Part shown: piece after piece, positions 1-23,311 of the stretch
How the letters are laid out: every line of letters begins with the position of its first letter
How positions within the stretch are numbered: the first letter of the stretch is position 1
NCBI GenBank assembly: GCA_035968315.1
Contig: JAVYIN010000005.1
Location: 806,001-870,000, forward strand
Length of the DNA stretch: 64,000 nucleotides
Reading direction: 5' to 3'
From: Nitrospira sp.
Lineage (GTDB): Bacteria > Nitrospirota > Nitrospiria > Nitrospirales > Nitrospiraceae
Made by a program: the position numbers and the translations under genes
Notes under the pieces: model-generated
Told to the model about the DNA's origin: nothing
Database searches by the model: none
The model's input: only the letters and a program-made list of their open reading frames with translations

Positions 1-79
1 GAGGATACCGGATCGCCGCATGGATCGGCGGACGCCCCGGATAGGTCTTGGTGATGTCGATGGCTACTTCTGCGGCCAT
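1..79 (-). CDS. modC: Molybdate ABC transporter ATP-binding protein ModC (N-terminal fragment)
   Basis: Only the first 26 codons are inside the window; the gene continues beyond base 1. The ATG at 77-79 lies inside the end of modB, giving a 16-base overlap that suggests translational coupling. The visible peptide begins MAAEVAIDITKTYPG, which looks like the first strand of an ABC ATPase domain. No Walker motif is visible because of the truncation, so the call rests mainly on its place after modA and modB. Its expected role is to drive molybdate (or tungstate) import through ModB. Confidence 0.6.
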   Translation of the reverse strand, partial: MAAEVAIDITKTYPGRPPIHAAIRYP

Positions 80-738
80 GCCGCCCAGACCTTTCGATTC
101 ATGGCATAGACCGTCAGCAATACGAGATACGACACCACCAGGAGAAAGAACGCCGTCTTCGCCGCCCCCGCATAATTCAGCGCCTGCACCTCGTCATAAA
201 TGTCGATCGAGACCGTCCTCGTCTCCCCGGCGATATTGCCGCCGACCATGAGGACCACACCGAACTCGCCAAGCGTATGGGCGAAGCTGAGCACCACGCC
301 CGTAATGAGCCCGGTGGCCGAGAGGGGGACAATGAGCCGAAAGAACGTCTGCACCTTGGAGCGGCCCAGCGTCCAGGAGGCTTCGAGCAAGCGGCGATCG
401 ACCTGCTCGAACGCCGACGCGAACGGCTGTACGGCAAACGGCAAGCTATACAGAATCGACGCCAACAAAAGCCCTTCGAAGGTGAATGGAAGAGGATGGC
501 CGACCAGGTCCACATAGAAGCGGCCGATGGGGCTATGAGGCCCAATGGCGACGAGGATGTAGAACCCCAGCACCGTCGGCGGGAGCACCAGCGGCAAGGC
601 GACAATCGACTCGACCAGAAATTTCCAGCGCCAGGTTGAAAACGTGACCCAATAGGCGATCGGCAACCCGATCAGCAGCAAGGAGCCAGCCGTAAGGCTG
701 GCCAATTTGACAGTGACCCAAATGGCAAGCCAGTTCAT
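64..738 (-). CDS. modB: Molybdate ABC transporter permease ModB
   Basis: This 224-residue inner-membrane permease has about five hydrophobic segments and the usual length for ModB. The EAA loop that contacts the ATPase is at about residues 119-139 (EASWTLGR...RLIVP). ModB-like signatures include LPPTVLGFYIL near residue 52 and GETRTVSIDIYDE near residue 171. It passes molybdate delivered by ModA to the cytoplasm. It follows modA and a small lipoprotein gene and overlaps modC, so the order is modA-x-modB-modC. Sulfate or tungstate specificity cannot be excluded from the permease alone, but the ModA upstream favours molybdate or tungstate. Confidence 0.9.
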   Translation of the reverse strand: MNWLAIWVTVKLASLTAGSLLLIGLPIAYWVTFSTWRWKFLVESIVALPLVLPPTVLGFYILVAIGPHSPIGRFYVDLVGHPLPFTFEGLLLASILYSLPFAVQPFASAFEQVDRRLLEASWTLGRSKVQTFFRLIVPLSATGLITGVVLSFAHTLGEFGVVLMVGGNIAGETRTVSIDIYDEVQALNYAGAAKTAFFLLVVSYLVLLTVYAMNRKVWAAWPQK

Positions 739-751
739 CTCAGAATACGTC

Positions 752-1081
752 CTACTTGCATATGAACTGCATTCCCCACCGCCGGCCGGTGACCTCCCCC
801 TCCGCCCCTTCCACGCTGGACAGGCTGCCGTACCCTTTGACTTCCCCCTCCTTCAGCACCACGTAGCCGGACGGACACTTCTGCTCCATGACCTTCAACG
901 CCTCTCTCCGATGGATTGAGCCCATCGGCCCCCCACGCTCTTCTTTAAAGAGGTAGGACACGACCCCGCTCGTCGGCGTCTCCCGCACCATCGTCACGGC
1001 ATCGGAGCATCCGGCGCTAACAGCGAACACCGCCGCACCGAACAGCGCCTTCACCGCATTATCTCGGCAATGTAAATCCAT
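752..1081 (-). CDS. Small putative lipoprotein of unknown function within the mod operon
   Basis: A 109-residue protein with a short N-terminal hydrophobic stretch (LFGAAVFAVSAGC) ending in a plausible lipobox with Cys25. After export it would be about 85 residues, with a further Cys near residue 69 and another two residues from the C-terminus. Its start lies 23 bases inside the modA reading frame and its stop is 13 bases before modB, so it is embedded in the mod transcript. I do not recognise the family. Its position suggests an envelope protein linked to molybdate uptake, but that is inference. A shorter protein starting at an internal Met would lose the signal sequence, so the long form is preferred. 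Confidence 0.6.
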   Translation of the reverse strand: MDLHCRDNAVKALFGAAVFAVSAGCSDAVTMVRETPTSGVVSYLFKEERGGPMGSIHRREALKVMEQKCPSGYVVLKEGEVKGYGSLSSVEGAEGEVTGRRWGMQFICK

Positions 1082-1820
1082 ACCGCCTCATGATGTCCTG
1101 CCCCTGCGAGCTTTGTAAGAATTCCAGGAAGCTCCGCGCCGCGGCCTGATTCTTGGATTGTTTGAGAATCACCGCCCCCTGCTCCAACGAAGGATACGCC
1201 TCAGCCGGAATCTCCCAGTAAGAGCCTTTGTCTTTCATGGCAGGGGCCATCGCAAGCGATAACGCGATGACCCCGATGTCACAAGCACCGGATTCGATAA
1301 ACTGCGCGGCCTGCGAGATATTCTCCCCCAAGATCAGTTTATCTTTGACCGATTCGTAGACCTTGGCGTACTCCATCGCCGCTACCGCCGCACGACCATA
1401 CGGGGCATGTTTGGGATTCGCAATCGCAATCTTCTTGATACCCGGCTCCCGCAGGACATCGAGCCCCTTAGATACATCCAGGCGCGATGCCGTCCCTGCC
1501 CATAAGACAATGCGCCCCACCGCGTATCGATAGAGCGACCCTGGCACCGTGAGCCCGGCCTCTTCCAGCTTCTTGGGGTACCCGCTATCGGCGGAAAAAT
1601 ACAGATCGAAGGGCGCCCCGTTCTGAATCTGCGCATAGAAATTGCCCGACGACCCCAACGACAGCTTCACATGGTTCCCCGTAGTCTTTTCATATTCGGC
1701 CACGAGTTCCTTGAACGCGAAATTCAGATCCGACGCCGCGGCAATCGTCACCTCCTCCGCGCCGGCCAGGTTTACACCTGAGAGGACAAGCATACATATG
1801 ATGGCAATGATTCGAAGCAT
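1059..1820 (-). CDS. modA: Molybdate-binding periplasmic protein ModA
   Basis: A 253-residue protein with a cleavable signal peptide (about residues 1-21, ending NLAGA) followed by EEVTIAAASDLNFAF, the typical start of mature ModA. The ligand-loop segment SSGNFYAQIQNGAPFDLYF near residues 57-75 is characteristic of the ModA/WtpA fold. It should bind molybdate or tungstate in the periplasm and deliver it to ModB/ModC encoded just downstream. It is one of three ModA-like proteins in this window. It is the one most likely to serve the dedicated transporter, because it is the only one adjacent to modB and modC. Confidence 0.92.
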   Translation of the reverse strand: MLRIIAIICMLVLSGVNLAGAEEVTIAAASDLNFAFKELVAEYEKTTGNHVKLSLGSSGNFYAQIQNGAPFDLYFSADSGYPKKLEEAGLTVPGSLYRYAVGRIVLWAGTASRLDVSKGLDVLREPGIKKIAIANPKHAPYGRAAVAAMEYAKVYESVKDKLILGENISQAAQFIESGACDIGVIALSLAMAPAMKDKGSYWEIPAEAYPSLEQGAVILKQSKNQAAARSFLEFLQSSQGQDIMRRYGFTLPR

Positions 1821-1832
1821 AGCCCGGCCTCC

Positions 1833-3548
1833 TTAAAAGAATATTTGATATTGGATGCGGACCGCATTTTCAATCAACGTCCTGGCATTCACATCCAATG
1901 CTACGGTTCCGGACGGGAAATTGGTGCCCACCGCCGGCAACGGCGCACTACGTCCAATCGCAAAGCCGCCTTGTCCCATCGCAATATTGCTATAGGTCAC
2001 CATGATCTGATGATCGTACGTCCCGCTCAGAAACCAGTTCAATGAGACATCCACTTCCTTGATCAAATCCCCGCCCGATCTGGTATCCGGATCCCACCAG
2101 GCATAACGCGCCGCGACTTCGACTTTCCGGGGAATCAGATAGTAACCCGATTGCACATACCAACCCGTCGCATTGCCGAACTGTCCCGGCGCATAGACCG
2201 TACAAGGCCCTCCCACCGTGGCCGTCTGCAAACAGGGGAGTCCTTTCTCATGCCGCGTCACGTTCCTGAACCAGTATTCTGCCTGCAGCGAGAATCCACG
2301 GTACTTGAACGCATAATCGAGGGTCCAGGTGGAAAAGTCGACGATCCCTTGCCCGAGCATTCTCCCATTTCCCAGCACGGCCAGCGACCGTCTGAGATTC
2401 AGATTTGCCAGATCGATGCCGACGAACGCATTATCGGTGCTGGTATTAAGCCCGGGGTTATACGCATAGCCACCCCCTATCGCCATTTGCGGAGTCTCGG
2501 AGTAGGCAATATCACCTTCGCCATATCCAGCCCGGCCCAAGACATTCCACTGCAACCGCGCCGTATACATGAGCTGGTTGATGCTGGTTCGGACATTGGC
2601 GTTGAGATTTCGGTTATTCGCCGGACAGCCTGTCGGAGAGGGAAAGGGATTCCCACCAGTCTGTCCTCCCGAACACCCCACCGTGGCTTCCTCGCTGCCG
2701 AATTGAGCGAACCGATTCACCAGAGGACCTTCGCCATTGAAAATGCCGAAATAGTAATTGACCGGGTATATTTCTTCATCATTCATGATCGTGATGCCGA
2801 CGTCACGCCGGTTGAGCCCGCTCGCCGCAAAGGCATCCATCGCGAGGGCTCGGTTGGCAAACTGCATCGCCGCGGTCGAATTAATCTGCGACCGATTGAA
2901 GTAGACCTTGAACTGACCGACCTGCACATTCAGCCAGGGGATATGAGTGCTGAGCACATACGCGTCAAGCATCGAAATGGAGCCAGGTGCCTGCGCATTT
3001 TCACTCGTCTCCCCTGCCAGCTGAAAGTAGTATTTCAAGTCAGGGCTGAAGAGATGTCCCATGAAATAGAGGCGGGCGGTCCGTAAATTGAATGTGGATC
3101 CATCATTGGTCGATCGATTCGCACGGTAATCACCGAACACCCCGAGCAGCTCAGGAAAATCTTTCGAATCTCCTGTCGTGCGCCAGGCATCATTCCTATA
3201 CCGCTGTGTATAGCGCGTTGCGAACCGGCCACGGATTTTGAGGAGGAAGTCATTGTCGTTCATCGAAAAGTTAAAACCCCGGTCATACCAGGCTTTGAAG
3301 CTGGGCTGTAAGAGATATGTGCGCTCCTGCGATTCCCTGACCACGTGATCGTACTCTTCCTGCGTAATCGTGCCCTGCTTGACCGCCCGCTGCAGCAAGA
3401 GCTTGGTGGCCGGATCCATGCTTTCGACAAACACGTAGCGTCCGTCTTTTTCGACGAGCTTCCCGGCATCCGCAGCCCAAGCCGGGCTCATACACAGACC
3501 CAACAGAACCATATATCCAGCAACAAACCATCGAGCGTGATGAGACAT
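1833..3548 (-). CDS. OprP-like phosphate/oxyanion-selective outer-membrane porin
   Basis: A 571-residue outer-membrane beta-barrel protein. The ATG at 3546-3548 is chosen because a GAGGAG ribosome-binding site precedes it and a normal signal peptide (ending SPAWA) follows; an upstream in-frame start at 3605 would add 19 unlikely residues. After the signal comes a short helical segment with GTITQEEYD near residue 60, then a long barrel ending in the Phe-rich terminus YQIFF expected for BAM recognition. It resembles the phosphate-selective porin O/P family. A paralogue is at 7999-9633 with the same ITQEEYD segment. The substrate is unknown; neighbouring ModA genes suggest an oxyanion such as molybdate. 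Confidence 0.85.
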   Translation of the reverse strand: MSHHARWFVAGYMVLLGLCMSPAWAADAGKLVEKDGRYVFVESMDPATKLLLQRAVKQGTITQEEYDHVVRESQERTYLLQPSFKAWYDRGFNFSMNDNDFLLKIRGRFATRYTQRYRNDAWRTTGDSKDFPELLGVFGDYRANRSTNDGSTFNLRTARLYFMGHLFSPDLKYYFQLAGETSENAQAPGSISMLDAYVLSTHIPWLNVQVGQFKVYFNRSQINSTAAMQFANRALAMDAFAASGLNRRDVGITIMNDEEIYPVNYYFGIFNGEGPLVNRFAQFGSEEATVGCSGGQTGGNPFPSPTGCPANNRNLNANVRTSINQLMYTARLQWNVLGRAGYGEGDIAYSETPQMAIGGGYAYNPGLNTSTDNAFVGIDLANLNLRRSLAVLGNGRMLGQGIVDFSTWTLDYAFKYRGFSLQAEYWFRNVTRHEKGLPCLQTATVGGPCTVYAPGQFGNATGWYVQSGYYLIPRKVEVAARYAWWDPDTRSGGDLIKEVDVSLNWFLSGTYDHQIMVTYSNIAMGQGGFAIGRSAPLPAVGTNFPSGTVALDVNARTLIENAVRIQYQIFF

Positions 3549-3620
3549 GGCAATGAGCTCCTCAATCAAAGCGAACAGACGATCGCGAATGAACGATGGC
3601 GACAAGGATGAAAATGAAGG

Positions 3621-4283
3621 TTACGACCCTGGAGACGTTCCGACTTTGGGCATTTTCAAGAACGCACGATAGTCCAGCGCTGAGACACCCTGTTGGTCGG
3701 CAGCCCAAAATCGGCCAGGCTCAAAATAGAGAAGGTACTCGGCGGGCGGTGGCGGCGGGGTGGGGTAATTGTAGTCGTAGAGATCTGATTTTCTGGTCGG
3801 GATCTGCACATGCACATGCTCAAGCGTAAGATAGAAATAGGGTTCACGAACCGCTACCCACCCGCCGACAACATCACGGAGGACACTGGGATTGAGACCC
3901 GGCGCGCGCAATTCGAAATGCACGCGCTCCTCCGGCCCGGCGGCTCGGAGGCCTTCCGAGAGGCGGACGGCCAACGCGGTCAGTTCATCCTGGCGGAACA
4001 CCGGCTTCGGAGGATTTTCTTCCGCGAACCAGCGCAACGGCATGCGCTGCTTGGGCCGGAATGAGAACCCCTGCAAGATGTCCGTTAACTCCGCCGCGGT
4101 CAGGTGTGCCGGATGTGAATAGGCCGAGGTCTCCACTTCCCGCTGAAGCGAGACAATCACACGCGCGTCTTCATGGACCATAGTCGTGGTGTACGGCAGA
4201 CGCGCACAGGAAGCGGATAGGCCCACGGCAGCCACACAGAGAACTATCCGCGGAAATATGAAGGCACGGTATTGATGACGCAT
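3621..4283 (-). CDS. Paralogous envelope lipoprotein of unknown family (copy 1)
   Basis: A 220-residue protein with a signal sequence and probable lipobox around Cys26 (GLSASC). The body contains HPAHLTAAELTDIL, then RQDELTALAVRLSEGL, then ERVHFELRAPG, and WVAVREPYFYLTLEHVHV, and ends after a proline run (TPPPPPAEYL) and ADQQGVSALDYRAFL. The same blocks in the same order occur in the lipoprotein at 10497-11222, so the two are clear paralogues. Each sits with a porin and a ModA-like protein. I do not recognise a named family. A role linking outer-membrane porin and periplasmic binding protein is inference from this repeated context. Confidence 0.75.
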   Translation of the reverse strand: MRHQYRAFIFPRIVLCVAAVGLSASCARLPYTTTMVHEDARVIVSLQREVETSAYSHPAHLTAAELTDILQGFSFRPKQRMPLRWFAEENPPKPVFRQDELTALAVRLSEGLRAAGPEERVHFELRAPGLNPSVLRDVVGGWVAVREPYFYLTLEHVHVQIPTRKSDLYDYNYPTPPPPPAEYLLYFEPGRFWAADQQGVSALDYRAFLKMPKVGTSPGS

Positions 4284-4339
4284 ACATGCTCTCCGTTGAT
4301 ATGAAAAGACGCCGCCAGGAACCTTGTCTGACCGCCCAC

Positions 4340-5188
4340 TCAGGGAATAGAAACGCGCACCGGTGATTCAGGCGTTTTCCCCGGTCCATACCCCAATCGT
4401 TTCAATACCGACTGCCCGTCCGGGCTCGTCACAAACCGCAAAAACTCTTCACAGAGCGGACGATCCGGGCAATACCGTTCCATGGCGATAGAATGCGGAA
4501 TCGGCTTGTAGAGGCCGGCTGGAGCCGTCGCCACAATGCGGACCCGCTGCTGAACCTTCATCGCATCCTGGCCGAAGAGGATGCCGACATCGGCCTGGCC
4601 GCTCAGCACATGATCAAGAATGCCCGCCTGATCGTTGGCAAGATCGAGCCTCTTCCCCTTGAGGCCCAAGGCCCTCAAGACCTGATCGGTTTCTACGCCC
4701 AGTCGCGTGGACAGGTCGGCGACAGCGATACGCACCGTCCCCATCGTCGCCAACGCCTCAAATGATTCCGGTGCTTCGCTCAAGGACTCTGGTGCAATCA
4801 GCACGAGCCGTTCCGTCGCATACAAGGCGTTCGCTTCCGGCAGCAAATAATATTTCTGTTCCATACGGGTGATGACTTCATCGCCGCCCGGCGCCACGAG
4901 GTGAATCGGGCCTGAGCCGATGAAGGACTTGCCTCGGCTCTCCATCGCGGCAACCATCCGGCGCAAATCGAGCGCTGGATCGACAGAAAGCTGGACGCGC
5001 ACCCCCGGATGGCTGACCTCGAACGCCTGGCCGAGTTGAGTCAGCGCCTCCGCCACGGCCGGTGACGTCGCAATGACCAGCACCCGAACCGCGCCTTCAT
5101 CTCGAACCGAACGTGGCACCGGCCCACAATTCACGCTGGCGGCGATACAGAGCCCCACCGTGACAACACTCATCCATCGCATAGTCAT
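4340..5188 (-). CDS. ModA-like substrate-binding protein, possibly a lipoprotein
   Basis: A 282-residue type-2 periplasmic-binding-protein relative. The ATG at 5186-5188 gives a short hydrophobic leader ending in SVNC, a weak lipobox with Cys21; starting further upstream would overlap the regulator gene. The mature region has VRVLVIATSPAVAEALTQL, comparable to the AAASDL start of ModA, and later VRIAVADLSTRLGVETDQVL and ADVGILFGQDA, matching the second lobe of molybdate-type proteins. It directly follows the XRE regulator gene (19-base gap) and precedes the lipoprotein gene. It may feed a shared ABC permease or act as a sensor. No permease of its own is adjacent. Confidence 0.8.
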   Translation of the reverse strand: MTMRWMSVVTVGLCIAASVNCGPVPRSVRDEGAVRVLVIATSPAVAEALTQLGQAFEVSHPGVRVQLSVDPALDLRRMVAAMESRGKSFIGSGPIHLVAPGGDEVITRMEQKYYLLPEANALYATERLVLIAPESLSEAPESFEALATMGTVRIAVADLSTRLGVETDQVLRALGLKGKRLDLANDQAGILDHVLSGQADVGILFGQDAMKVQQRVRIVATAPAGLYKPIPHSIAMERYCPDRPLCEEFLRFVTSPDGQSVLKRLGYGPGKTPESPVRVSIP

Positions 5189-5207
5189 CAGATTTCCGCC
5201 CTCATCA

Positions 5208-6392
5208 TTACAACGCCTGAACCTTGCCCGTGTCCGTCGTGTCATACCCGCCGATGGCGGCGATCTCCGACCGAAACGGCCGGCTGGCCAGCGTGTCGAA
5301 GAGATGGTTCAGGGAGGGATGGCTGGAGAGATAGGCTTTCGGCACCACCAAATCGTAGCGTGCCGACTGCAACGGAATGAAGTCGAGGCCATAGGACTGC
5401 GCGGCGGATCTGATGCCCACCCCCGCATCCGCCTGCCCTTCCGAGACCAGACGCGCGACATGGAGATGGGACGCCGCCGTGCGATCGTACCCGTTTACCT
5501 GCGAACCGACGAACCCTGCCGCGCGCAGCCGCTGATCAAGCAATAATCGGGCACCAGCTCCCTCCTCCCGATTGATCAGGGTCACATCCTCCCGCACCAA
5601 ATCCACAACCGATCGAAGCCCCTTGGGGTTGCCAGGCCTGACCATCAATCCTTCTTCCCAAGTAGCGAACGTAATCACCTCATAAGCACTCGCCTTCAAC
5701 TGCCGGCGGAGAAACGGGAGATTGCTCTCACCGGTCGACGCATCGGTCAGATGAATGCCGGCCACATGGACCTCGCCTCGTTGCAACGCCTGGAGCGCGG
5801 CGGTGCTCCCCATCGTCCAGCCCACCACGCTGGTCTGGTCCTTCCGCCGGCGAAGGTGTTCTCCCGCCAAAAAGATGGCGGGATCGCACCCGGCCACAGC
5901 GATTTCCTGCTCGATCGCCTGGCGGTCACGTGAAAGCCGCACCTGCACAACAGGCGCATCGACGCGCCCTCGACGAGCGATTTCCTGCGATTCAAGAAAC
6001 CCATCGGCCGCGACGGTATAGCTCAAGACTTCACCAAGACCTGCCACGGGCCGCGCATAATACCGGCCATTCACCTTCACCACCTTCACCCGAGGCAACG
6101 AAGAGACGGACGACGTCGGCCTCGGCACATCAATCAATCTGGCCTCGATCACCTCTCCCGCGGATTGCAGGGAAAACAACTCTTCCACCGAGGTATTCAG
6201 TACACGCGCGAGTTGGAGCGCCACAGCAGTGGTTGGGAGATAGCGGTTGGCTTCGATCGAAGAAATGGCCTGGCGAGTAATGTCTGCACGGGCCGCGAGC
6301 TCACCCTGCGAGAGCCCCCTGGCGACTCGCACGTCCTTGAGCCGATTCAGGAAAGTCGGTGGCACCGCGGGAGATGGATTTCGTTGAGTCAT
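5208..6392 (-). CDS. XRE-type transcriptional regulator with C-terminal substrate-binding (molybdate/PBP-like) domain
   Basis: A 394-residue one-component regulator. Residues about 17-73 form a helix-turn-helix of the XRE type (ARGLSQGELAARADITRQ, then EANRYLPTTAVALQLA). Residues about 165-375 resemble a periplasmic-binding-protein fold (VVGWTMGSTAALQALQ, INREEGAGARLLLDQRL, EGQADAGVGIRSAAQSYGL) of the kind annotated as PBP-like or molybdate-binding in regulators. It is the first gene of the leftward arm and faces the rightward arm across an AT-rich gap. Intracellular molybdate, tungstate or a sulfur compound is the likely ligand, and both arms the likely targets. That assignment is inferred from context. 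Confidence 0.85.
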   Translation of the reverse strand: MTQRNPSPAVPPTFLNRLKDVRVARGLSQGELAARADITRQAISSIEANRYLPTTAVALQLARVLNTSVEELFSLQSAGEVIEARLIDVPRPTSSVSSLPRVKVVKVNGRYYARPVAGLGEVLSYTVAADGFLESQEIARRGRVDAPVVQVRLSRDRQAIEQEIAVAGCDPAIFLAGEHLRRRKDQTSVVGWTMGSTAALQALQRGEVHVAGIHLTDASTGESNLPFLRRQLKASAYEVITFATWEEGLMVRPGNPKGLRSVVDLVREDVTLINREEGAGARLLLDQRLRAAGFVGSQVNGYDRTAASHLHVARLVSEGQADAGVGIRSAAQSYGLDFIPLQSARYDLVVPKAYLSSHPSLNHLFDTLASRPFRSEIAAIGGYDTTDTGKVQAL

Positions 6393-6424
6393 GCAAAACG
6401 AAATAGCAAATATACTTTACTTAA

Positions 6425-6440
6425 GTCAATCAAAATTGAC
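6425..6440. promoter_or_regulatory. Inverted repeat, candidate operator of the divergent uptake locus
   Basis: A perfect 6-base inverted repeat, GTCAAT-CAAA-ATTGAC, lies 33 bases upstream of the XRE regulator start in an AT-rich gap. It could be an autoregulatory site for the divergent regulator. TTGAC half-sites recur nearby at 6519-6523. The operator role is inference. Confidence 0.4.
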
Positions 6441-6518
6441 AGACCAAACATTTATTGCTCATTATTAATGACTCCACATATCAATGTTTCTGTCTTTAGC
6501 ACCCATGCAATTTACTTG

Positions 6519-6546
6519 TTGACAATGTAGCTCCACTTACTATATT
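6519..6546 (+). promoter_or_regulatory. Candidate sigma-70 type promoter for the rightward arm
   Basis: TTGACA at 6519-6524 is followed after 16 bases by TATATT at 6541-6546, a near-consensus -35/-10 pair in a region much richer in A and T than its surroundings. The first gene of the rightward arm begins 64 bases downstream. The gap 6393-6610 contains no credible reading frame. Confidence 0.5.
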
Positions 6547-6610
6547 TACATTTATCTCAATCTTGATCGGTTTACAGATATATAATTATTTATAAGAAAG
6601 ACCAGCCACC

Positions 6611-7630
6611 ATGACTCGAGTACTTGTTCTTCTCGCAGCCCTTATCTCTTCACTCTTTATTGCCCTGCTCCCCATCGTTCACGCATTCGATTGGGTGCCG
6701 ACGGATGAGGACATCAAGAAGTACCGGCAGAGCTGGAATCCCCTCTCACATGGCCCCATCCTCCTTCAGTCGGTCGATACACAGCCGAAAGGCCAGCTCT
6801 CCATCCGAGAGTTTTTCTTCTCCCAGATCAGTGAAAGCAGCTTCGGCAACCGGCTCAGCTTCGCGACCGACAGCAAGAACGGCCCCGTTCACCTCTATCA
6901 AATCTCGCCATCCGTGAATGCGGCCTACGGGCTTAGCAATCACGTCGAGGTGGGAGCCGCGCTGTCCATGAACGCCTTCTGGGCCACGCAGAATGGAACC
7001 CACACGTCCGATACCAGTTTCGGAGACGTGTCGCTTGTCATGAAATACCGTCCGATCATCCAGGATCCGGATAGCTGGAAACCGTCCATCACCCACTTTA
7101 CGCAAATCGTGCTCCCCACCAGCCGCTGGACGGGCGCCGAGCGTCCCCCCGGAGGATTTTCGCCGCTTGGCCGGCTGCCCAGCACGCGGTTCGGCGAATA
7201 CGGCATTACCCAGGGGCTCATGATGCGCAAGAACTTCGAGCCCATCCGGATCAGCGCCGCCGTGTTTTATACCTATGCGGTCCCTGGAGAAAACCAGGGG
7301 CTGACGACCTATTCAGGCGATGTCATCAACACACGCCTGATTGTCGAACATATCGTCGATGACAAACACGGGTTCGGCTACAACATCGAGATCAGCACCT
7401 TGCATGGCACCACCTGGCGCGCCGACGGACACCAGATCAATACAGGCCAGCTGAAGGGCTTCTCGATTATCGGCGTCGAGCCCGCCCTGCAATGGAACTT
7501 CTCGCAAAACTGGATGGTCGCGGCCGGCTGCCTGTTTACGGCGGCGGGACAAAATGCGAGCAATTCCATCTACCCGAACGTGTCCCTGTTCTGGTTCTGG
7601 GACCGAAGCGGCAAGATCATCATGCGATAA
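6611..7630 (+). CDS. Outer-membrane beta-barrel protein, transporter-like (MetA-pathway type)
   Basis: A 339-residue exported protein: hydrophobic signal sequence to about residue 25 (LLPIVHA), then a beta-rich body with alternating aromatic residues and a C-terminus rich in aromatic residues (SLFWFWDRSGKIIMR). Segments such as SVNAAYGLSNHVEVGAAL and FGDVSLVMKYRPI resemble the outer-membrane 'transporter' family related to phenol MetA-type proteins. It is the first gene of the rightward arm of the uptake locus. Its substrate cannot be read from sequence. It may pass an organic sulfur compound, given the YezD and SsuA-like genes downstream, but that is speculative. Confidence 0.65.
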   Translation: MTRVLVLLAALISSLFIALLPIVHAFDWVPTDEDIKKYRQSWNPLSHGPILLQSVDTQPKGQLSIREFFFSQISESSFGNRLSFATDSKNGPVHLYQISPSVNAAYGLSNHVEVGAALSMNAFWATQNGTHTSDTSFGDVSLVMKYRPIIQDPDSWKPSITHFTQIVLPTSRWTGAERPPGGFSPLGRLPSTRFGEYGITQGLMMRKNFEPIRISAAVFYTYAVPGENQGLTTYSGDVINTRLIVEHIVDDKHGFGYNIEISTLHGTTWRADGHQINTGQLKGFSIIGVEPALQWNFSQNWMVAAGCLFTAAGQNASNSIYPNVSLFWFWDRSGKIIMR

Positions 7631-7664
7631 GCGCCATGTTGCAGCGGCGACAACACATACCATC

Positions 7665-7847
7665 ATGGAACACGAAAACCGATCAGAACGAAAGAGCGAT
7701 CACGACATCGCCCAGACCATTCTGGCCGCATTGAAGGGAATCCGATTCGGCTCAGTCGAAATCGTGATCCACAACTCCAAAGTGGTCCAGATCGAACGAA
7801 AGGAAAAACTGCGTATTGGCACGGATAGCCTCTCGTCTGCGCAGTGA
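7665..7847 (+). CDS. YezD family small protein (DUF2292)
   Basis: A 60-residue cytoplasmic protein. The core ALKGIRFGSVEIVIHNSKVV followed by QIERKEKLRI is the DUF2292/YezD signature. The ATG at 7665 is the start that gives the usual family length; longer in-frame starts overlap the preceding gene. No strong ribosome-binding site precedes it, so translation may depend on the upstream gene. YezD proteins are often found next to sulfate, sulfonate or molybdate uptake genes; their biochemical role is not known to me. Here it lies between an outer-membrane protein and a porin. Confidence 0.85.
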   Translation: MEHENRSERKSDHDIAQTILAALKGIRFGSVEIVIHNSKVVQIERKEKLRIGTDSLSSAQ

Positions 7848-7894
7848 GCTGACATGAACACACAACCCTGTCTTTCCCTATAAGAAACCGGCAC

Positions 7895-7918
7895 GGGCCA
7901 TCCAGACGACTGGAGCCC
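7895..7918 (+). other. Hairpin in leader between yezD-like gene and porin gene
   Basis: GGGC and TCCAG (7895-7905, with a CA bulge) pair with CTGGA and GCCC (7910-7918) around an ACGA loop, forming a nine-pair imperfect stem. It is not followed by a T-run, so it is more likely a processing or regulatory structure than a terminator. Confidence 0.35.
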
Positions 7919-7949
7919 ACACGATATAAAACACCCTACACACATTCCG

Positions 7950-7976
7950 AAAACTGACCGGATCACCGGAAGTTTT
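7950..7976 (+). terminator. Terminator-like or attenuator-like hairpin before the second porin gene
   Basis: AAAACT (7950-7955) pairs with AGTTTT (7971-7976), and CCGG (7958-7961) with CCGG (7966-7969), around an ATCA loop. The stem ends in TTTT eight bases before the porin's AGGAGG site. It could terminate the upstream transcript or attenuate the porin. Confidence 0.4.
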
Positions 7977-7998
7977 CATGTCCAGGAGGAGCAGCGAC

Positions 7999-9633
7999 AT
8001 GAGAATTTCCGGTGTGCTTTTATTGATTCTTGGATCATTGACGATTCTGACCAATCCACCCCCTGCCCTGGCCGCCGAGGAAGGCCAACTCGTCAAGAAG
8101 GAAGGCAAGTGGGAGTACTATTCCGGCGAAGACCCTGGATTGAAGTATCTTTATCTGAAAGGGCTGATCACCCAGGAGGAGTACGACAAAGGCCTGAAGG
8201 TGATCGAAACGAAAGAACGCCTTTCACGGCTGAATTTTGGCCTCGATGTCAACAACGGCTTGAACATCCGGGTCGGAGAGAAGTTCTTTCTGAAACTTCG
8301 GCTGCTGACTCAGGTACGCTACACCCACAGTGACTACAACAGCGCCTGGGGCACGATCGGAGATTCGAGAAACCCGGAGATTCTGGGGGGCCAGGTCGAG
8401 TTTCGGGCCGTCAAGAAGCAGAGCGATTCCAATCTCTTCTCCGTCCCCCGCGCCCGCGTCCAGTTTCTGGGCTACGCCTTCGATCCGGATTTCCGTTACA
8501 ACTTTTCCTGGTCGTTCGATCAAACCTCGTGGGATCAGGAAGGGGGCAGCGGCCGGGCAAGACTGCTTGATGCCTATGTCGCCTCCTGGCACATTCCATT
8601 GGCAACGGTCCAAGTCGGCCAGCAGCGCGTCTGGTTCAACCGCGCCAATATCAGTTCCATTGCCACCTCCACGTTTGCGGACAATATGATTGTCCAGCGG
8701 GCCTTTGCCGCCAATCAAATCGACAGCCGCGACGTCGGCATCAGCATCCTCAGCGATGAGGATCAATACAAGCTGAACTATGCCGTTGGTATCTGGGGAG
8801 GGGTTGGACCGAACCTGACCAGGGAAGGCACTTCTGTCAGCCAACGGGTCCTGCCTCCTAGCGGCGGCGGCGGCCCCTCATCAGGAACGACTCGCACCTA
8901 CAACTACGACACTCGATTCATGACCGGCGAGATGTTGTACACCGCCAGGATTCTGTACAAGATTTCTGGAAATCCGGGGTATGGCCAAGGAGACATCTTG
9001 AACTCACGCACCCCACAGGCAGCCATCGCCTTCGGGTATGCCTACAATCCGGCACAAAACTACCTGAGCGCCATTCGCTCCGACATCGTCGACCGGGCCT
9101 ATCGCCAGAGTGTCACCAAAGCTTTTAATGGCCGGCTCCTCGGCGGAGGCATCTACGATTTCCAGACCTACGAGACGGACTTCATCGCCAAATACCAAGG
9201 CTGGTCCCTCCAGGCTGAAGGGTACTTCCGGCATCAGCGTGTCCGTCATAGCGACAGCGGCGCGACCCCCTTCGACCTCGCCACCATCCCGGCAGCTCAA
9301 TTCACCGGCCCCCCAGTAGCGCTGGGGCACGCCTGGGGTTGGTACACCCAAGTGGGGAAATACCTCATCCCCCGCAAACTCGAAGTGGCTGTCCGGTATG
9401 GCGTGATGGACCCCTCGACCAAACAGAAGCGCGATCTCACCAAGGAGTTCGGCTTCGCCATCAACTACAGCTTCGACGGCACCTACAACAACCGGCTTGT
9501 CATCGATTACTCCAACATCACACAAGGCAGCGGCGGGCGCGCCCCAGACCGCTATCCCTTCGAAAGCCTCCCTGGCTTCGGACAGGATCTCATCGAAAAC
9601 CGCATCAATGTGCAATACCAGTTCTACTTCTAA
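7999..9633 (+). CDS. OprP-like oxyanion-selective outer-membrane porin (paralogue)
   Basis: A 544-residue outer-membrane porin. The ATG at 7999 is chosen because AGGAGG (7984-7989) precedes it and a signal peptide (ending PALAA) follows; a start at 7978 would add seven residues that overlap the ribosome-binding site. As in the porin at 1833-3548, the mature N-terminus carries a short helix with GLITQEEYDKGL, and the barrel has matching blocks (LLDAYVASWHIPLATVQVGQ, RDVGISILSDEDQY, GNPGYGQGDI). It ends in NVQYQFYF. The two porins are clear paralogues within 10 kb. It is followed by a ModA-like gene and a lipoprotein gene, probably in one operon. Confidence 0.87.
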   Translation: MRISGVLLLILGSLTILTNPPPALAAEEGQLVKKEGKWEYYSGEDPGLKYLYLKGLITQEEYDKGLKVIETKERLSRLNFGLDVNNGLNIRVGEKFFLKLRLLTQVRYTHSDYNSAWGTIGDSRNPEILGGQVEFRAVKKQSDSNLFSVPRARVQFLGYAFDPDFRYNFSWSFDQTSWDQEGGSGRARLLDAYVASWHIPLATVQVGQQRVWFNRANISSIATSTFADNMIVQRAFAANQIDSRDVGISILSDEDQYKLNYAVGIWGGVGPNLTREGTSVSQRVLPPSGGGGPSSGTTRTYNYDTRFMTGEMLYTARILYKISGNPGYGQGDILNSRTPQAAIAFGYAYNPAQNYLSAIRSDIVDRAYRQSVTKAFNGRLLGGGIYDFQTYETDFIAKYQGWSLQAEGYFRHQRVRHSDSGATPFDLATIPAAQFTGPPVALGHAWGWYTQVGKYLIPRKLEVAVRYGVMDPSTKQKRDLTKEFGFAINYSFDGTYNNRLVIDYSNITQGSGGRAPDRYPFESLPGFGQDLIENRINVQYQFYF

Positions 9634-9675
9634 CGAAACATGCAGAACACCACACACATCACCACGAGGACGTCC

Positions 9676-10500
9676 ATGAAACACCAGGCTCAGCTCTTTC
9701 GACGATGGCTGCTGCTCAGCATCGCGGCTCTTACATTTTGGGCACCGGCCGGCGCATCAGCGCAACCGGAAACGCTCACCATTGCCGCCGCCAACAGCGT
9801 CAAGGACGCATTACGGAAAGTCTTGCCGCTGTTCGAATCCCAGCACCGTGAAGTCAACGTGCGGGTCATCTATGGCCCGTCCCAAACCCTCCGAAAGCAA
9901 ATCGAAGAAGGAGCACCCGTGGATGTGTTCCTCCCCTCCTTGTCCGAGGAAATCGATCAGCTCGAAAAAAAGGGCCTCGTCATTCAGGGCAGCAAACGTG
10001 TCTATGCCGGCACGTCGCTGGTGCTGATCACCAGCACCACGCTTCCCGCGCCCATCGCCTCGATTCAGGACCTGCACACCGTCCCGGTCCGGCGCATCGC
10101 GATCGGTGACCCCAAAGCCTCATCGGTGGGAAAAGTCGCTATGCAGTTTCTCACGCACAGCAAACTCGAACCGCAACTGAAATCGCAGTTTATTTATGGC
10201 GAACATTCGCGCGCCGTGCTGGATTTGGTCGCCAAGGGTGAGGCCGAAATCGGCATCGTCTATCGGACAGACGCCGTCGCGGACGAACACGTTCGCATTC
10301 TCGATACGGCCCCGGAAAACTCGCATACCCCGATTCGCTACGGCGTAGCCGTTGTCTGGACAGCGAAGAACCTGTCTGGAGCGGGGGACTTCATCGAGTT
10401 TCTCCTGACACCCCAGACCCAAACGCAACTCAAAGAACATGGGTTCGATCAAGCATCTCGCAATGCCGGATTGGCCCAACAGCAGGAGGGAAAACCATGA
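9676..10500 (+). CDS. ModA-family periplasmic oxyanion-binding protein
   Basis: A 274-residue protein with a signal peptide (ending GASAQP) and mature start ETLTIAAANSVKDAL, a ModA-like beginning. GPSQTLRKQIEEGAPVDVFL matches the ligand-binding loop of the molybdate-type family, and GEAEIGIVYRTDAV the second lobe. The ATG at 9676 follows GAGGA by five bases; the earlier ATG at 9640 lacks a ribosome-binding site and would place 12 polar residues before the signal. It overlaps the following lipoprotein gene by four bases (ATGA), implying translational coupling. No ModB-type permease is adjacent, so its partner is uncertain. Confidence 0.87.
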   Translation: MKHQAQLFRRWLLLSIAALTFWAPAGASAQPETLTIAAANSVKDALRKVLPLFESQHREVNVRVIYGPSQTLRKQIEEGAPVDVFLPSLSEEIDQLEKKGLVIQGSKRVYAGTSLVLITSTTLPAPIASIQDLHTVPVRRIAIGDPKASSVGKVAMQFLTHSKLEPQLKSQFIYGEHSRAVLDLVAKGEAEIGIVYRTDAVADEHVRILDTAPENSHTPIRYGVAVVWTAKNLSGAGDFIEFLLTPQTQTQLKEHGFDQASRNAGLAQQQEGKP

Positions 10501-11222
10501 ACAGCACCGCACCGTCAACACCGCACGCCTACACCTGGTCGATCACGGGGCTCCTCTTCTTCGCAGGCCTCACTATCTTGGCAGGTTGCGCCACACAGCC
10601 CGTCTCAGCGCCGAAGGCGATCTATGAATCAGGACTCAATACGATACGGCTGGAAGGAGATCCCGATTCATCGGTGAACGCACACCCGGCCGCACTCACA
10701 CCGACTGAAATCGGCACGCTCTTGCGAAACGTGCGGGTGTGGGAGCGGCGGAATGTGATCCACCGTTTATTCAGCGGTGACGCCAACAGGACCAGGGCCT
10801 TCCGGGATGAAGAAATCGTGCTGTTGGCCCCACACCTGGCAAAGGGATTGGCTCAGGCCACACCGGCTCAGCGGGTGCATTTCCGCCTGAGTCATGCCAC
10901 GGACCAGGGGGAGGAGGAAACGACGGCAGGATGGCTCTCCGTTCGTGACAATATCCTCGTCCTGACCCTCAGCGAGGTGCACGACCGGCACAGCCCCGGT
11001 CCAGACATCAGCAAATACGACCGCCAAATGCCGAATGTCCCGGAACGATCCGCCGCCTTCGATGCGGCCTTCGAGCCGGAAGAATATCTGGCCAAGGTCA
11101 GTTCAGGCGGCCGCCTATTTGCCCCGGACCAACAGGAGGAACTGCACATTCGCTATCGCGAAGCGCTGACGGCTCTCCCCGTTTATCCAGGCCTTGAGCA
11201 AGGGCGTCACCTACGCCCGTAG
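10497..11222 (+). CDS. Paralogous envelope lipoprotein of unknown family (copy 2)
   Basis: A 241-residue protein with a clear lipoprotein signal (LTILAGC, Cys31). Shared blocks with the lipoprotein at 3621-4283 are HPAALTPTEIGTLL, RDEEIVLLAPHLAKGL, QRVHFRLSHA, GWLSVRDNILVLTLSEVH and ADQQEELHIRYREAL, in the same order. Its start overlaps the ModA-like stop by four bases. The family is not one I recognise. The tight coupling to a ModA-like gene here, and the equivalent arrangement in the other arm, argue for a joint role in uptake at the envelope. Confidence 0.77.
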   Translation: MNSTAPSTPHAYTWSITGLLFFAGLTILAGCATQPVSAPKAIYESGLNTIRLEGDPDSSVNAHPAALTPTEIGTLLRNVRVWERRNVIHRLFSGDANRTRAFRDEEIVLLAPHLAKGLAQATPAQRVHFRLSHATDQGEEETTAGWLSVRDNILVLTLSEVHDRHSPGPDISKYDRQMPNVPERSAAFDAAFEPEEYLAKVSSGGRLFAPDQQEELHIRYREALTALPVYPGLEQGRHLRP

Positions 11223-11297
11223 CCAGCGCACGCATCCACCGGAATGGAGAGAGCCCCTGCTCCCAATGGGCATCACCTTGGATCAAGAGGAACCATC

Positions 11298-12281
11298 ATG
11301 AAACGATTGTCAGCGATAGCTCTCGGCTTACTCTTACTCACTGCGTCGGCCGGAATCTCTACACCTCAACAGGCGCTGGCAGCCGAAACCATTCGCGTCG
11401 GACATTTTCCGAATATCACCCACGTCCAGGGTCTGGTCGCCCAACACCTTTCTCGCACGGGACGCGGATGGTTTGAAGAGCGGCTCGGCCAAGACGTGAA
11501 GATCGAGTGGTTTATCTACAACGCCGGACCGAGCGCCATGGAAGCGATTCTGTCCGGCTCCATCGACCTCACTTACGTGGGGCCAAGCCCAGCCTTGAAT
11601 GCCTATGCGAAATCGAACGGCGAGGAAATCCGCATCATCGCCGGCGCCGCGACCGGAGGCGCCGCCTTGGTTGTCCAACCCGATTCCACATTTACGCAAC
11701 CCGCCGATTTTCGAGGAAAGACCATCGCGACTCCCCAGCTCGGGAATACGCAAGACGTGGCCTGCCGGGCCTGGCTGGCCAATGGCGGGTTGAAGATTAC
11801 GCAGACTGGCGGCGATGCCTTCATCGTCCCCACACCAAACCCCGACCAATTCGCCTTATTCCAAAGCAAGAAGCTCGATGCCGTCTGGACCGTTGAACCC
11901 TGGGTCTCCCGTCTGGAACGTGACGCCGGAGGCAAGATCCTTCTCGAACAATCGAAGGACAGCATCACAGTCCTGGTATCGAGTGTGAAGTTTCTCAAGA
12001 CCAAACGCGAACTCGCCAAGAAATTTGCACAGGCCCACCGTGAACTCACCGAGTGGATCCTCGCGCATCCGGCAGAGGCGAAGCAGATGGCGCAACAAGA
12101 ACTGGCGGCTGAAACCCACGCCGCCGTCTCAACCGAATTGATCGCCCAGGCCTGGACACGGATCGGCCTGACCACTGAAGCCTCGCCCGGCGAGTATCAG
12201 CAATTCGTCGCCAACGCGCAGCGCGCCGGATTTATTCGCACAGCCCCAGACTTGTCCCGCTTGATCGAAAGGTTGAATTGA
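11298..12281 (+). CDS. ABC transporter substrate-binding protein, nitrate/sulfonate/taurine type (SsuA/TauA-like)
   Basis: A 327-residue periplasmic protein; the ATG at 11298 follows GAGGAA and precedes a signal peptide ending ALAAE. The mature start TIRVGHFPNITHVQGLVAQ and the block IEWFIYNAGPSAMEAILSGSIDLTYVGPSPALNAY are typical of the NMT1/SsuA/TauA class. It lies one base before the ATPase gene, and with the permease completes a three-gene transporter. Sulfonate or taurine is favoured over nitrate because of the YezD gene upstream, but this cannot be decided from sequence. Unlike many SsuA operons, no monooxygenase gene is adjacent. Confidence 0.85.
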   Translation: MKRLSAIALGLLLLTASAGISTPQQALAAETIRVGHFPNITHVQGLVAQHLSRTGRGWFEERLGQDVKIEWFIYNAGPSAMEAILSGSIDLTYVGPSPALNAYAKSNGEEIRIIAGAATGGAALVVQPDSTFTQPADFRGKTIATPQLGNTQDVACRAWLANGGLKITQTGGDAFIVPTPNPDQFALFQSKKLDAVWTVEPWVSRLERDAGGKILLEQSKDSITVLVSSVKFLKTKRELAKKFAQAHRELTEWILAHPAEAKQMAQQELAAETHAAVSTELIAQAWTRIGLTTEASPGEYQQFVANAQRAGFIRTAPDLSRLIERLN

Positions 12282-12282
12282 C

Positions 12283-13089
12283 ATGCCGACACCGGAAAGC
12301 CCATCGACCACCACCGCCTCCAGCAAACTTGTGTTTGAACATATCTCGAAGTCCTTTCAGACCAGCTCGCTGCATGTTCAGGCGCTCAACGACGTGACGC
12401 TCCGTATCGCCGACGGAGAGTTCGTCTGTCTCGTCGGCCCCAGCGGCTGCGGCAAATCGACCTTGCTCAACATCATGGCCGGCCTCGACCGGCCTGATCG
12501 CGGGCTCGTTCAAGCCGACGGCCACACCATCACCGGCCCAGGCCCCCACCGTCTTATGATGTTTCAGGAAGCCGCCTTGTTCCCGTGGCTGACCGTGTTG
12601 GGCAACGTCCTCTTTGGGCTGAAACTCAGCAACGGATTGACGGCCGCGGAACGTCAGGAGAAGGCCGAATATTTCCTGGAACTCGTCGGCCTGAAGCGGT
12701 TCATGCATGCCAATGTCCATGAACTTTCCGGCGGCATGAAACAACGCGTAGCCCTGGCTAGAGCGCTGGCACCGAACCCCAGCGTGCTCTTGATGGACGA
12801 ACCATTCGGCGCCCTGGATGCTCTCACACGCGAGCAACTTTATGGCGACATTCAACGCATCTGGAGCCAGCATCGCAAGACCATCGTCTTCGTCACGCAT
12901 AACGTGCGAGAAGCGGTCTGCCTGGGAGACCGCGTGATCTTGTTTTCACCAAACCCCGGACGGATTCGCGAAGAATTTGCGATTCCTCTTCCACGCCCGC
13001 GTGACATCAACAGTGTGGACCTCGCGCGCTACGCCACGGAGATTACCCGCGTGCTGAAAGGCTACGTCAAAACGGAGGTGGCAGGATGA
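12283..13089 (+). CDS. ABC transporter ATP-binding protein, SsuB/TauB type
   Basis: A 268-residue ATPase with Walker A GPSGCGKST (residues 52-60), the Q-loop segment MMFQEAALFPW, signature LSGGMKQRVALARAL and Walker B LLMDEPFGALD, followed by the switch histidine in FVTHNVREAV. These sequences and the length fit the nitrate/sulfonate/taurine subfamily. It energises the permease encoded next; its stop overlaps that gene by four bases (ATGA). Confidence 0.93.
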   Translation: MPTPESPSTTTASSKLVFEHISKSFQTSSLHVQALNDVTLRIADGEFVCLVGPSGCGKSTLLNIMAGLDRPDRGLVQADGHTITGPGPHRLMMFQEAALFPWLTVLGNVLFGLKLSNGLTAAERQEKAEYFLELVGLKRFMHANVHELSGGMKQRVALARALAPNPSVLLMDEPFGALDALTREQLYGDIQRIWSQHRKTIVFVTHNVREAVCLGDRVILFSPNPGRIREEFAIPLPRPRDINSVDLARYATEITRVLKGYVKTEVAG

Positions 13090-13856
13090 TCGTACGATGG
13101 CTGTCCGCATCGCTATTTTTCCTGGCCCTCCTGGCTGTATGGCACCTCGCCGTGAAAGCCAAGATCTGGTCGCCGCTCCTATTGCCGTCTCCCATGAGCG
13201 TCTTCGACTATCTGCGGTCCGCCGTGGAAGACGGCACACTCTGGGAGGCCACCGTCGTCACCGTGCGACGGCTCCTTATCGGATACGGACTCGGCGTCCT
13301 TGCCGGGCTTCCTTTGGGCCTCCTCACCGCCTCGTCCCGCTGGTCTCAAGACACCATTGGAATCCTCGCACTGGGACTCCAGACGCTTCCGAGCGTCTGC
13401 TGGGTGCCGCTCGCACTCCTCTGGTTCGGGCAAACCGAATCCGCCATGCTCTTCGTCGTGGTGATGGGAACCCTCTGGTCATTGATTCTCGCCACGAACA
13501 ACGGCGTGCGGACGATCCCGCCGATCTATACCCGTGCCGCCCGCAGCATGGGGTCAACCGGCCTGCACACCTGGACACATGTGATCCTGCCGGCATCGCT
13601 GCCATTCCTTTTGAGTGGCATGAAGCAAGGCTGGGCCTTCGCCTGGCGCTCGCTGATGGCGGCGGAAATATTCGTCACGATCCTGACCGGCTTTGGCCTG
13701 GGGCATTTATTGCACTATGGACGGGAACTTAACGCAATGGATCAAGTGATCGGAGTGATGCTGGTCATCGTAGTGATCGGGCTGGCCGTAGACAAATCAC
13801 TGTTTACTCCTATAGAACAATTTCTCCATCGCCGCTGGGGAACCGCGCGCCAGTAG
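13086..13856 (+). CDS. ABC transporter permease, SsuC/TauC type
   Basis: A 256-residue inner-membrane permease with about six hydrophobic segments. The EAA-type loop RAARSMGSTGLHTWTHVILP is followed by SGMKQGWAFAWRSLMAAEIF, typical of the SsuC/TauC/NrtB group. Its start overlaps the ATPase stop (ATGA). Together with the two preceding genes it makes a complete importer for a small sulfonated or nitrate-like substrate. Confidence 0.92.
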   Translation: MIVRWLSASLFFLALLAVWHLAVKAKIWSPLLLPSPMSVFDYLRSAVEDGTLWEATVVTVRRLLIGYGLGVLAGLPLGLLTASSRWSQDTIGILALGLQTLPSVCWVPLALLWFGQTESAMLFVVVMGTLWSLILATNNGVRTIPPIYTRAARSMGSTGLHTWTHVILPASLPFLLSGMKQGWAFAWRSLMAAEIFVTILTGFGLGHLLHYGRELNAMDQVIGVMLVIVVIGLAVDKSLFTPIEQFLHRRWGTARQ

Positions 13857-22444: not shown

Positions 22445-23311
22445 GTGACCTACTATCAGGTGCTTGAATTAAGCCCGTTGGCCACCGCCACCGATATTAA
22501 AAAGGCCTGGATTGAACAACTCCAAGTCTGGCATCCGGACCGGTTCACCCACGCCCCCGCGCTGCACAGCAAAGCGGAAGCTCGTACGCAGCTCATCAAC
22601 CAGGCCTATCAGACTCTGAGCGATCCGGTCTTGCGTCAGCGCTATGACGCCCAGACGCAACCGGCCTCGACGCGCACAACGCCCGCCGCCGCGCCCCAAC
22701 CGTCACGCCCGGCTTCGCCCGTGCGGCCTCAGCCGGCGGCCCCGCGTCACGCCAGGCAGGAGCCGCGCGGCCCGCAATTGCCCGTCACGCTCTTTCGAGA
22801 TGAACAGCCCAAGACTCCGGTGCCGGCCATTCATATCCTCGTCGATAGCCGCCAGCACCAGCCCTATGAGTTTCGCGGTCTGATTCGTATCGCCGGCACC
22901 ATGCAGCAACCGCTGGCCGCCGGAGACTATGCGATTGCCGAAGCGCCGGAACTCTTCTGCGTCGTCCGGAAACGCGTCGAAGAGTTCAATACGATTTTTT
23001 CCAATCCCGCCGATAACCGGCTGCCCTTTCTGCGCGAACTCGAACCGCTGCTCGCCATCCCCCACCGATTTCTCGTCATCGAAGGCGCCATTCAGGCGCG
23101 GATCGCCAGCGGCCGGCTCGGCCAGTATCACAAGAACGGCTTGATGGATTTTCTGGATGCCATCACGGCGCGGTATGGGATGCAGATCATCTATACCGAC
23201 AGCCGCGAAGAAGCGGAGGAGCGGATCGCCAATCTCGCCGCCCTCCACTATGCGTACTACTTCGCTCAGCGGCAGGGACTTGGCCGGTATCTCAAAAAGA
23301 ACGACCTCTAG
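22445..23311 (+). CDS. J-domain protein fused to a degenerate ERCC4-type nuclease domain
   Basis: A 288-residue protein. Residues 1-70 are a J domain with the HPD motif at 30-32 (VWHPDRF). A proline/arginine-rich linker (about 75-125) follows. Residues about 128-285 resemble the ERCC4 nuclease fold: HILVDSRQHQPYEF, then AAGDYAIAE, VVRKRVEEF, HRFLVIEGAIQ, and DAITARYGMQIIYTDSREEAEERI. Compared with the active-site pattern VDxRE...GDY...ERKxxxD, the acidic residues are altered: Gln137 for Glu, Val174 for Glu, Glu180 for Asp. Thus it may bind DNA without cleaving it, or use a modified site. It stands alone, divergent from tex. The function is unknown. Confidence 0.75.
   Translation: MTYYQVLELSPLATATDIKKAWIEQLQVWHPDRFTHAPALHSKAEARTQLINQAYQTLSDPVLRQRYDAQTQPASTRTTPAAAPQPSRPASPVRPQPAAPRHARQEPRGPQLPVTLFRDEQPKTPVPAIHILVDSRQHQPYEFRGLIRIAGTMQQPLAAGDYAIAEAPELFCVVRKRVEEFNTIFSNPADNRLPFLRELEPLLAIPHRFLVIEGAIQARIASGRLGQYHKNGLMDFLDAITARYGMQIIYTDSREEAEERIANLAALHYAYYFAQRQGLGRYLKKNDL

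Follow-up and report, generated by a model that had tools for sequence, protein, structure and literature searches.

The nearest described parts of the system reported here are the outer-membrane porin ExtI of Geobacter, whose loss lowers selenite and tellurite reduction (PMC5877670), and the short-chain amide/urea porin of the FmdC type at urea loci of comammox Nitrospira (PMC7078480, PMC6311188). Here we analysed a 64,000-nucleotide stretch of a Nitrospira sp. genome, referred to as the window (assembly GCA_035968315.1, contig JAVYIN010000005.1, positions 806,001 to 870,000 of the forward strand). It carries two divergent gene arms around one regulator, and each arm holds a porin, a lipoprotein of a family that we call LIP, and an extra ModA-like binding protein. 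The arms are a real, conserved system with an undescribed lipoprotein family, and our literature search found no description of a Nitrospira porin/molybdate/lipoprotein system or of porin-lipoprotein-binding-protein complexes.

Several known systems resemble the arms in part. Porin A matches PF07396 (50.1 bits against a gathering score of 20.9) and, weakly, ExtI; porin B has no PF07396 match at E<=0.1, and its predicted barrel appears nearest to OprP/OprO. No lipoprotein partner of this kind is recorded for OprP or ExtI in the literature searched; unlike those porins, the ones here are tied to a lipoprotein and an extra ModA-like protein in molybdate and sulfur importer operons. The importers are familiar, with modA, modB and modC in arm A and an SsuABC-like transporter, or CysPTWA in most relatives, in arm B, but standard ModABC, CysPTWA and SsuABC operons contain no porin, second binding protein or LIP. 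SusCD-type pairs take up nutrients through an outer-membrane barrel and a partner lipoprotein. The arms resemble these in pairing a lipoprotein with such a barrel for presumed nutrient uptake, and differ in that the barrel is a porin with no TonB plug, the LIP fold is unmatched, and LIP presumably lies on the periplasmic side. The FmdC-type urea porin of Nitrospira likewise sits beside an ABC (ATP-binding cassette) importer for one nutrient, and a LIP paralog lies divergently beside an FmdC-type porin-like gene and UrtA. Unlike in the arms, no extra binding protein was seen at that locus, and the LIP gene stands outside the operon.

We propose, at a probability of roughly 0.45, that each arm supplies an ABC importer with an add-on in the outer membrane and periplasm, in which the dedicated porin, LIP and the extra binding protein work together. 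The OprP-type porin would admit the nutrient anion to the periplasm. LIP, anchored in the outer membrane, would work with the extra (non-ABC) binding protein, which would catch the anion at the porin mouth and deliver it to the binding protein that belongs to the importer. Arm A would serve molybdate and arm B a sulfur oxyanion.

The trio of arm A lies on the minus strand and reads away from the regulator. The extra binding protein A1, a divergent ModA-like protein (PF13531, 93.9 bits), is encoded at 4340..5245 with an ATG start at 5188, lipoprotein A at 3621..4283, and porin A, which is OprP/ExtI-like, at 1833..3605 with an ATG start at 3548. The plus-strand trio of arm B consists of porin B (7978..9633, ATG start 7999), the ModA-like extra binding protein B (9640..10500, ATG start 9676) and lipoprotein B (10497..11222). 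The two sets are paralogous beyond chance as judged from pairwise alignment: porins A and B share 38% identity over 556 columns (E=1e-113) and the segment ITQEEYD, the lipoproteins 29% over 208 columns (E=4e-22), and A1 and protein B 27% (E=6e-22). An initial annotation of this DNA had described two divergent sets of porin, ModA-like protein and lipoprotein around one regulator, with this segment common to the porins, and had named non-homology of the copies as one of two points that would refute it. The identities bear the description out and the copies are homologous. All six genes are present where it placed them, with its starts corresponding to internal ATG codons of slightly longer open reading frames.

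Genes within each arm are mostly separated by 4-60 bp or overlap, an operon-like spacing. The arm A trio continues, through gaps of 12-14 bp or overlaps, into modA (1059..1820; TIGR01256, 218.3 bits), a small predicted lipoprotein with no Pfam family (752..1081) and the molybdate permease gene modB (64..738; TIGR02141, 226.8 bits against a cut-off of 182.6), all on the minus strand; modC (L024:4995-6080) lies just beyond the window edge. Behind lipoprotein B, on the plus strand, are genes for an SsuA-like binding protein (11244..12281; TIGR01728, 168.9 bits, above the cut-off of 163.5), an ABC ATPase (12283..13089; PF00005, E=5.5e-33) and an SaoP/SsuC-like permease (13086..13856; NF040733, E=1.1e-42, under the curated cut-off). 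Since both arms continue into ABC transporter genes, modA-modB-modC in one and an SsuABC-like transporter in the other, the earlier statement that the ModA-like proteins have no permease of their own was wrong. The oxyanion uptake unit proposed with it is supported in part: the three genes are passed on together within uptake operons for molybdate (arm A) and for sulfate/sulfonate (arm B).

In LIP itself, the lipobox Cys is invariant (75/75), and Asp at +2 occurs in 1/75 sequences. By the E. coli +2 Asp sorting rule, applied here to Nitrospira, the family is consistent with outer-membrane sorting. Its conserved residues include an invariant Gly and a near-invariant His-Pro. Neither lipoprotein matches a Pfam or NCBIfam family at E<=0.1. 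The AF2 model of lipoprotein B (pLDDT 88.8, pTM 0.81; per-residue and overall confidence) has a lipidated N-terminus, a mixed alpha/beta core, a long helix at 104-120 and strands at 125-165. It has no Foldseek match to solved structures at E<=0.001 (best match VIA, Z 3.3), and the LIP profile gave no convincing match to PDB sequences. The modelled fold thus appears to resemble no solved fold, although a weak match does not prove a new one. The porin B model is less confident (pLDDT 70, low in the loops); Foldseek ranks OprP first (E=3.9e-16), with a Z of 25.8 that is tied with VhChiP (25.7) and PorB (25.1).

The genes of the trio are inherited together. At 39 loci, arm A beside the regulator has the extra binding protein, LIP and porin A all present; 8 further regulator loci have a different porin with a canonical ModA, and both LIP and the extra binding protein are absent. 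In no case does one of these two stand without the other (0 of the 39 + 8 loci, a count in which two genomes are entered twice). On the tree, the ModA proteins of the 8 loci form two separate lineages, which makes two or more events likely. Apparent losses of LIP at L119, L123, L136, L145, L159 and L161 were rejected as gene-calling artefacts, the gene being recovered from stop-to-stop reading frames. At L128, L130, L135, L163, L170 and L180, a gene of about 270 aa, of a family without an assigned identity (cluster c60), stands between porin A and modA.

We also compared protein distances across 21-22 loci with both arms complete, entries that are not independent of one another. In both arms, LIP distances track those of the arm's own extra binding protein best (partial correlation 0.56 for lipoprotein A with A1, 0.62 for lipoprotein B with protein B). 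Lipoprotein A also tracks porin A (0.44), and porin B tracks protein B at the same value. Partial correlations of lipoprotein A with canonical ModA (0.06), ModB (-0.01), protein B (-0.01) and porin B (0.21) are lower, as are the adjacent-gene controls (regulator with A1, 0.23; porin A with ModA, 0.17). Such co-variation is a record of shared gene history, not of contact.

These data bear on a somewhat unlikely alternative, in which the role of LIP is to support the assembly, stability or gating of outer-membrane channels, without ever touching the extra binding proteins, which would be independent scavengers. The tracking of porin A by its lipoprotein would fit, as would the range of unrelated channels that LIP clades adjoin (OprP-like, BBP2, DUF6733 and one unassigned porin). 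Yet LIP follows the extra binding protein more closely than the porin in both arms, and the arm B porin not at all; arm A has lost LIP and the extra binding protein jointly while keeping a porin, and several LIP clades have no channel gene nearby.

The initial annotation had called the lipoprotein an orphan, but this genome (G000, 3.11 Mb) encodes seven LIP members, all on contig C5. Its three porins of this family each have a LIP gene and a ModA-like gene next to them. The third set, 340 kb away (C5:466271-469363; L021:5272-8376), has the gene order of arm B; no ABC transporter follows it, and sensor and response-regulator genes come next. The remaining four LIPs are at phosphate (pst), ammonium-transporter, Tat/RND and MiaB-like loci. 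Within the taxonomic family of this genome, 116 of 117 genomes contain LIP, with 4-11 copies per Nitrospiraceae genome, 1-5 copies in other families of the order and one copy in some deeper families of the class; none was found in the searched genomes of the phylum's other classes. Relatives of the porins found in a scan of named genomes with the porin alignment belong to Nitrospira, among them Candidatus Nitrospira defluvii, in whose genome both arms are present (L157). Across 22 contiguous genomes, each of the 35 close relatives of the porins is accompanied by a LIP gene on its own strand within 1 kb, in one of two fixed layouts. The LIP gene is either directly upstream of the porin, as in arm A, or some 0.9 kb downstream with the ModA-like gene between them, as in arm B.

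To describe LIP contexts, genes were called and clustered at 79 further Nitrospiraceae loci and 20 deeper loci, and the main clusters were identified. A tree of 110 LIPs, built with a quick search, groups by context (10 label changes against 75 in shuffles), with support of 100 for the arm A clade and 99 for the arm B clade. A porin-like gene lies within three genes of every arm A (16/16) and arm B (16/16) member. The same holds for 18/19 phosphate-type and 10/16 nitrogen-type (urea/ammonium) LIPs, whose porin neighbours are usually not of the arms' family; these two counts are descriptive because the context labels come from the neighbouring clusters themselves. Among the Tat, MiaB-like, deep and other classes the count is 0/44. 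Overall, about 54% of the 111 sampled LIPs have a porin-like gene of any kind within that distance. At the phosphate locus L022:4533-10442 we found a LIP, an Slp-type lipoprotein, an OprP-like porin, an extra PstS-like protein, a paralog of the small arm A lipoprotein (L022:6729-7100; 41% identity over 87 aa, E=4e-21), and pstS with pst transport genes, the same gene plan as the arms for a third nutrient. The phosphate, MiaB-like and nitrogen LIPs (L022, L023, L026) carry a C-terminal coiled-coil-like tail; the arm A, arm B and Tat-context LIPs do not. Taken across loci, the gene neighbourhoods suggest that the arms are a recurring outer-membrane add-on for nutrient importers. A stronger form of the proposal is that LIP defines a new outer-membrane uptake unit, in which it would dock an extra, non-ABC binding protein where its dedicated porin opens into the periplasm, so that scarce anions pass directly from the channel to that protein, with paralogs acting likewise at molybdate, sulfur, phosphate and perhaps nitrogen loci; we regard this as possible but doubtful.

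The same distribution could be read differently. LIP may be a general envelope lipoprotein of Nitrospirales with one non-transport function (for example a periplasmic enzyme, or a role in peptidoglycan or stress) that was duplicated and then taken up into several operons, its porin link reflecting only co-regulation. The near-universal presence of LIP in the family would suit this, as would the single copies in housekeeping neighbourhoods of deeper class lineages and an unmatched fold with its conserved Gly and His-Pro. We consider it unlikely, though, because the lipoproteins of each arm form their own clade tied to a porin and a binding protein, and the pattern recurs in further clades at the phosphate and nitrogen loci.

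What the arms carry is assigned by gene context, which points to molybdate for arm A and a sulfur oxyanion for arm B. The last genes of arm A encode ModB and ModC, and many relatives add a TOBE-domain, molbindin-like gene. Arm B in many relatives has a DUF2292 gene upstream, and sulfate-binding proteins (TIGR00971, 430 and 487 bits), CysT (TIGR02139, 433.7 bits) and CysW downstream. By approximate counts in which a few genomes appear twice, arm B continues into a sulfate-binding protein gene at about 28 loci, SsuABC-like genes as in the window at about 9, and signalling genes at about 12. The sulfur link of DUF2292 rests on this context, since a literature search on DUF2292 and sulfate returned just one Bacillus genome note. 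In the window and in some other genomes, the DUF2292 position upstream of porin B is occupied by the first gene of arm B found here (6611..7630, plus strand), which encodes a predicted outer-membrane protein with no Pfam or NCBIfam match and ends about 350 bp before porin B.

The extra binding proteins form clades separate from canonical ModA. Against TIGR01256 (cut-off 62.5 bits), modA of the window scores well above and protein B also above (167.3 bits), and A1 falls just under (58.0 bits). We compared the positions equivalent to Ser12 and Ser39 of E. coli ModA, which we take to be its ligand positions from the 1AMF structure. Canonical ModA proteins have Ser at these positions in 34/35 and 35/35 sequences, and modA of the window retains both. 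The protein B group has Asn in 44/50 and Ser in 46/50, and since Asn and Ser stand at the ligand positions, protein B may still bind an oxyanion.

A number of observations weigh against the add-on proposal. The A1 group has Pro at the Ser12 position in 38/39 sequences, and mostly Gly, Ser or Ala at the Ser39 position (Gly or Ala in 28/39). With the canonical Ser missing from the first position and, in most sequences, from the second, A1 is unlikely to bind molybdate in the standard manner. Lipoprotein B does not track its own porin (partial correlation -0.04), and because the highest correlations are also those between adjacent genes, part of them is explained by linked inheritance. A relic locus away from the regulator, L126, has a porin and LIP with no binding protein. 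Across the family, 35 of 150 LIPs are beside this porin family, among the matches listed (150 of about 169 in 22 genomes), and 44 of the 111 sampled, in Tat-linked, MiaB-like, deep-branching and other contexts, have neither porin nor binding protein within three genes; these loci, some 40% of the sample, are housekeeping in kind. The deepest-branching LIPs have no porin nearby, and these single-copy genes lie in housekeeping neighbourhoods, which means that LIP probably became linked to porins within the order. Because many LIPs, the deepest included, lack a porin, coupling of porin to binding protein may apply in the clades of the two arms, yet the family cannot have started out with that function. 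The other refuting point of the initial annotation, a lipoprotein family found mostly away from porin or ModA genes, is half borne out, which weakens its interpretation, and a reading of LIP as specific to ModA/porin modules was rejected on the same count of 35 in 150.

Between the arms lies a regulator gene (5208..6392, minus strand) whose product joins a helix-turn-helix (HTH) domain (HTH_3, PF01381, E=2.3e-14) to a periplasmic-binding-protein-like (PBP_like) domain (PF12727, E=1.5e-63). The A1 gene overlaps it. Upstream of arm B is an operator-like palindrome, CTTGTTGACAAT (6515..6526, plus strand), holding the -35 box TTGACA (at 6519) of a promoter that reads toward arm B (11/12), with a -10 element TATATT ending at 6546. 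The site is conserved: ATTGTTGACAAT occurs at <=2 mismatches in 37/41 regulator/arm B intergenic regions, and 41 of the 61 ATTGTTGACAAT-like sites of 634 kb fall within the 17.7 kb of this intergenic DNA. The inverted half-sites ATTGT-2-ACAAT are exact in 15 loci, compared with at most 3 in simple shuffles. Since the left half of the palindrome lies outside the -35 box, the site may be an operator, and the HTH-PBP regulator probably controls arm B through the putative ATTGTTGACAAT site over that box. A genome-wide scan at one mismatch found 10 palindrome sites in G000; only one is between the arms, so a regulon defined by the palindrome was rejected for this genome.

This arrangement might instead mean that the extra binding proteins and LIP sense nutrients in the periplasm and signal to the HTH-PBP regulator, with no part in transport. 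The overlap of A1 with the regulator gene, the loss of its canonical molybdate ligands, and the position of the regulator between the arms beside a conserved palindrome all lean that way. We find it improbable: the regulator has its own PBP domain, no known route here would carry a periplasmic signal across the inner membrane, and arm B has the same trio with no regulator gene of its own. In a related family, at L200:4635-6699, the HTH-PBP regulator directly adjoins a Tat-context LIP with no genes for a porin or a ModA-like protein, an arrangement that may be a remnant of the arms' origin. Elsewhere in the window, a single open reading frame at 22445-23311 combines a DnaJ domain followed by an ERCC4 nuclease domain, an unusual pairing.

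Substrates are generally assumed to reach periplasmic binding proteins from a passive porin by diffusing freely. In a conserved trio that nitrifiers of global importance inherit together, possible channelling can be put to a concrete test. Because nitrite oxidoreductase is a molybdenum enzyme, molybdenum supply matters directly to nitrite oxidisers. The arms also bring to light a large, uncharacterised lipoprotein family, with several copies in each Nitrospiraceae genome, at loci for molybdenum, sulfur, phosphorus and nitrogen uptake.

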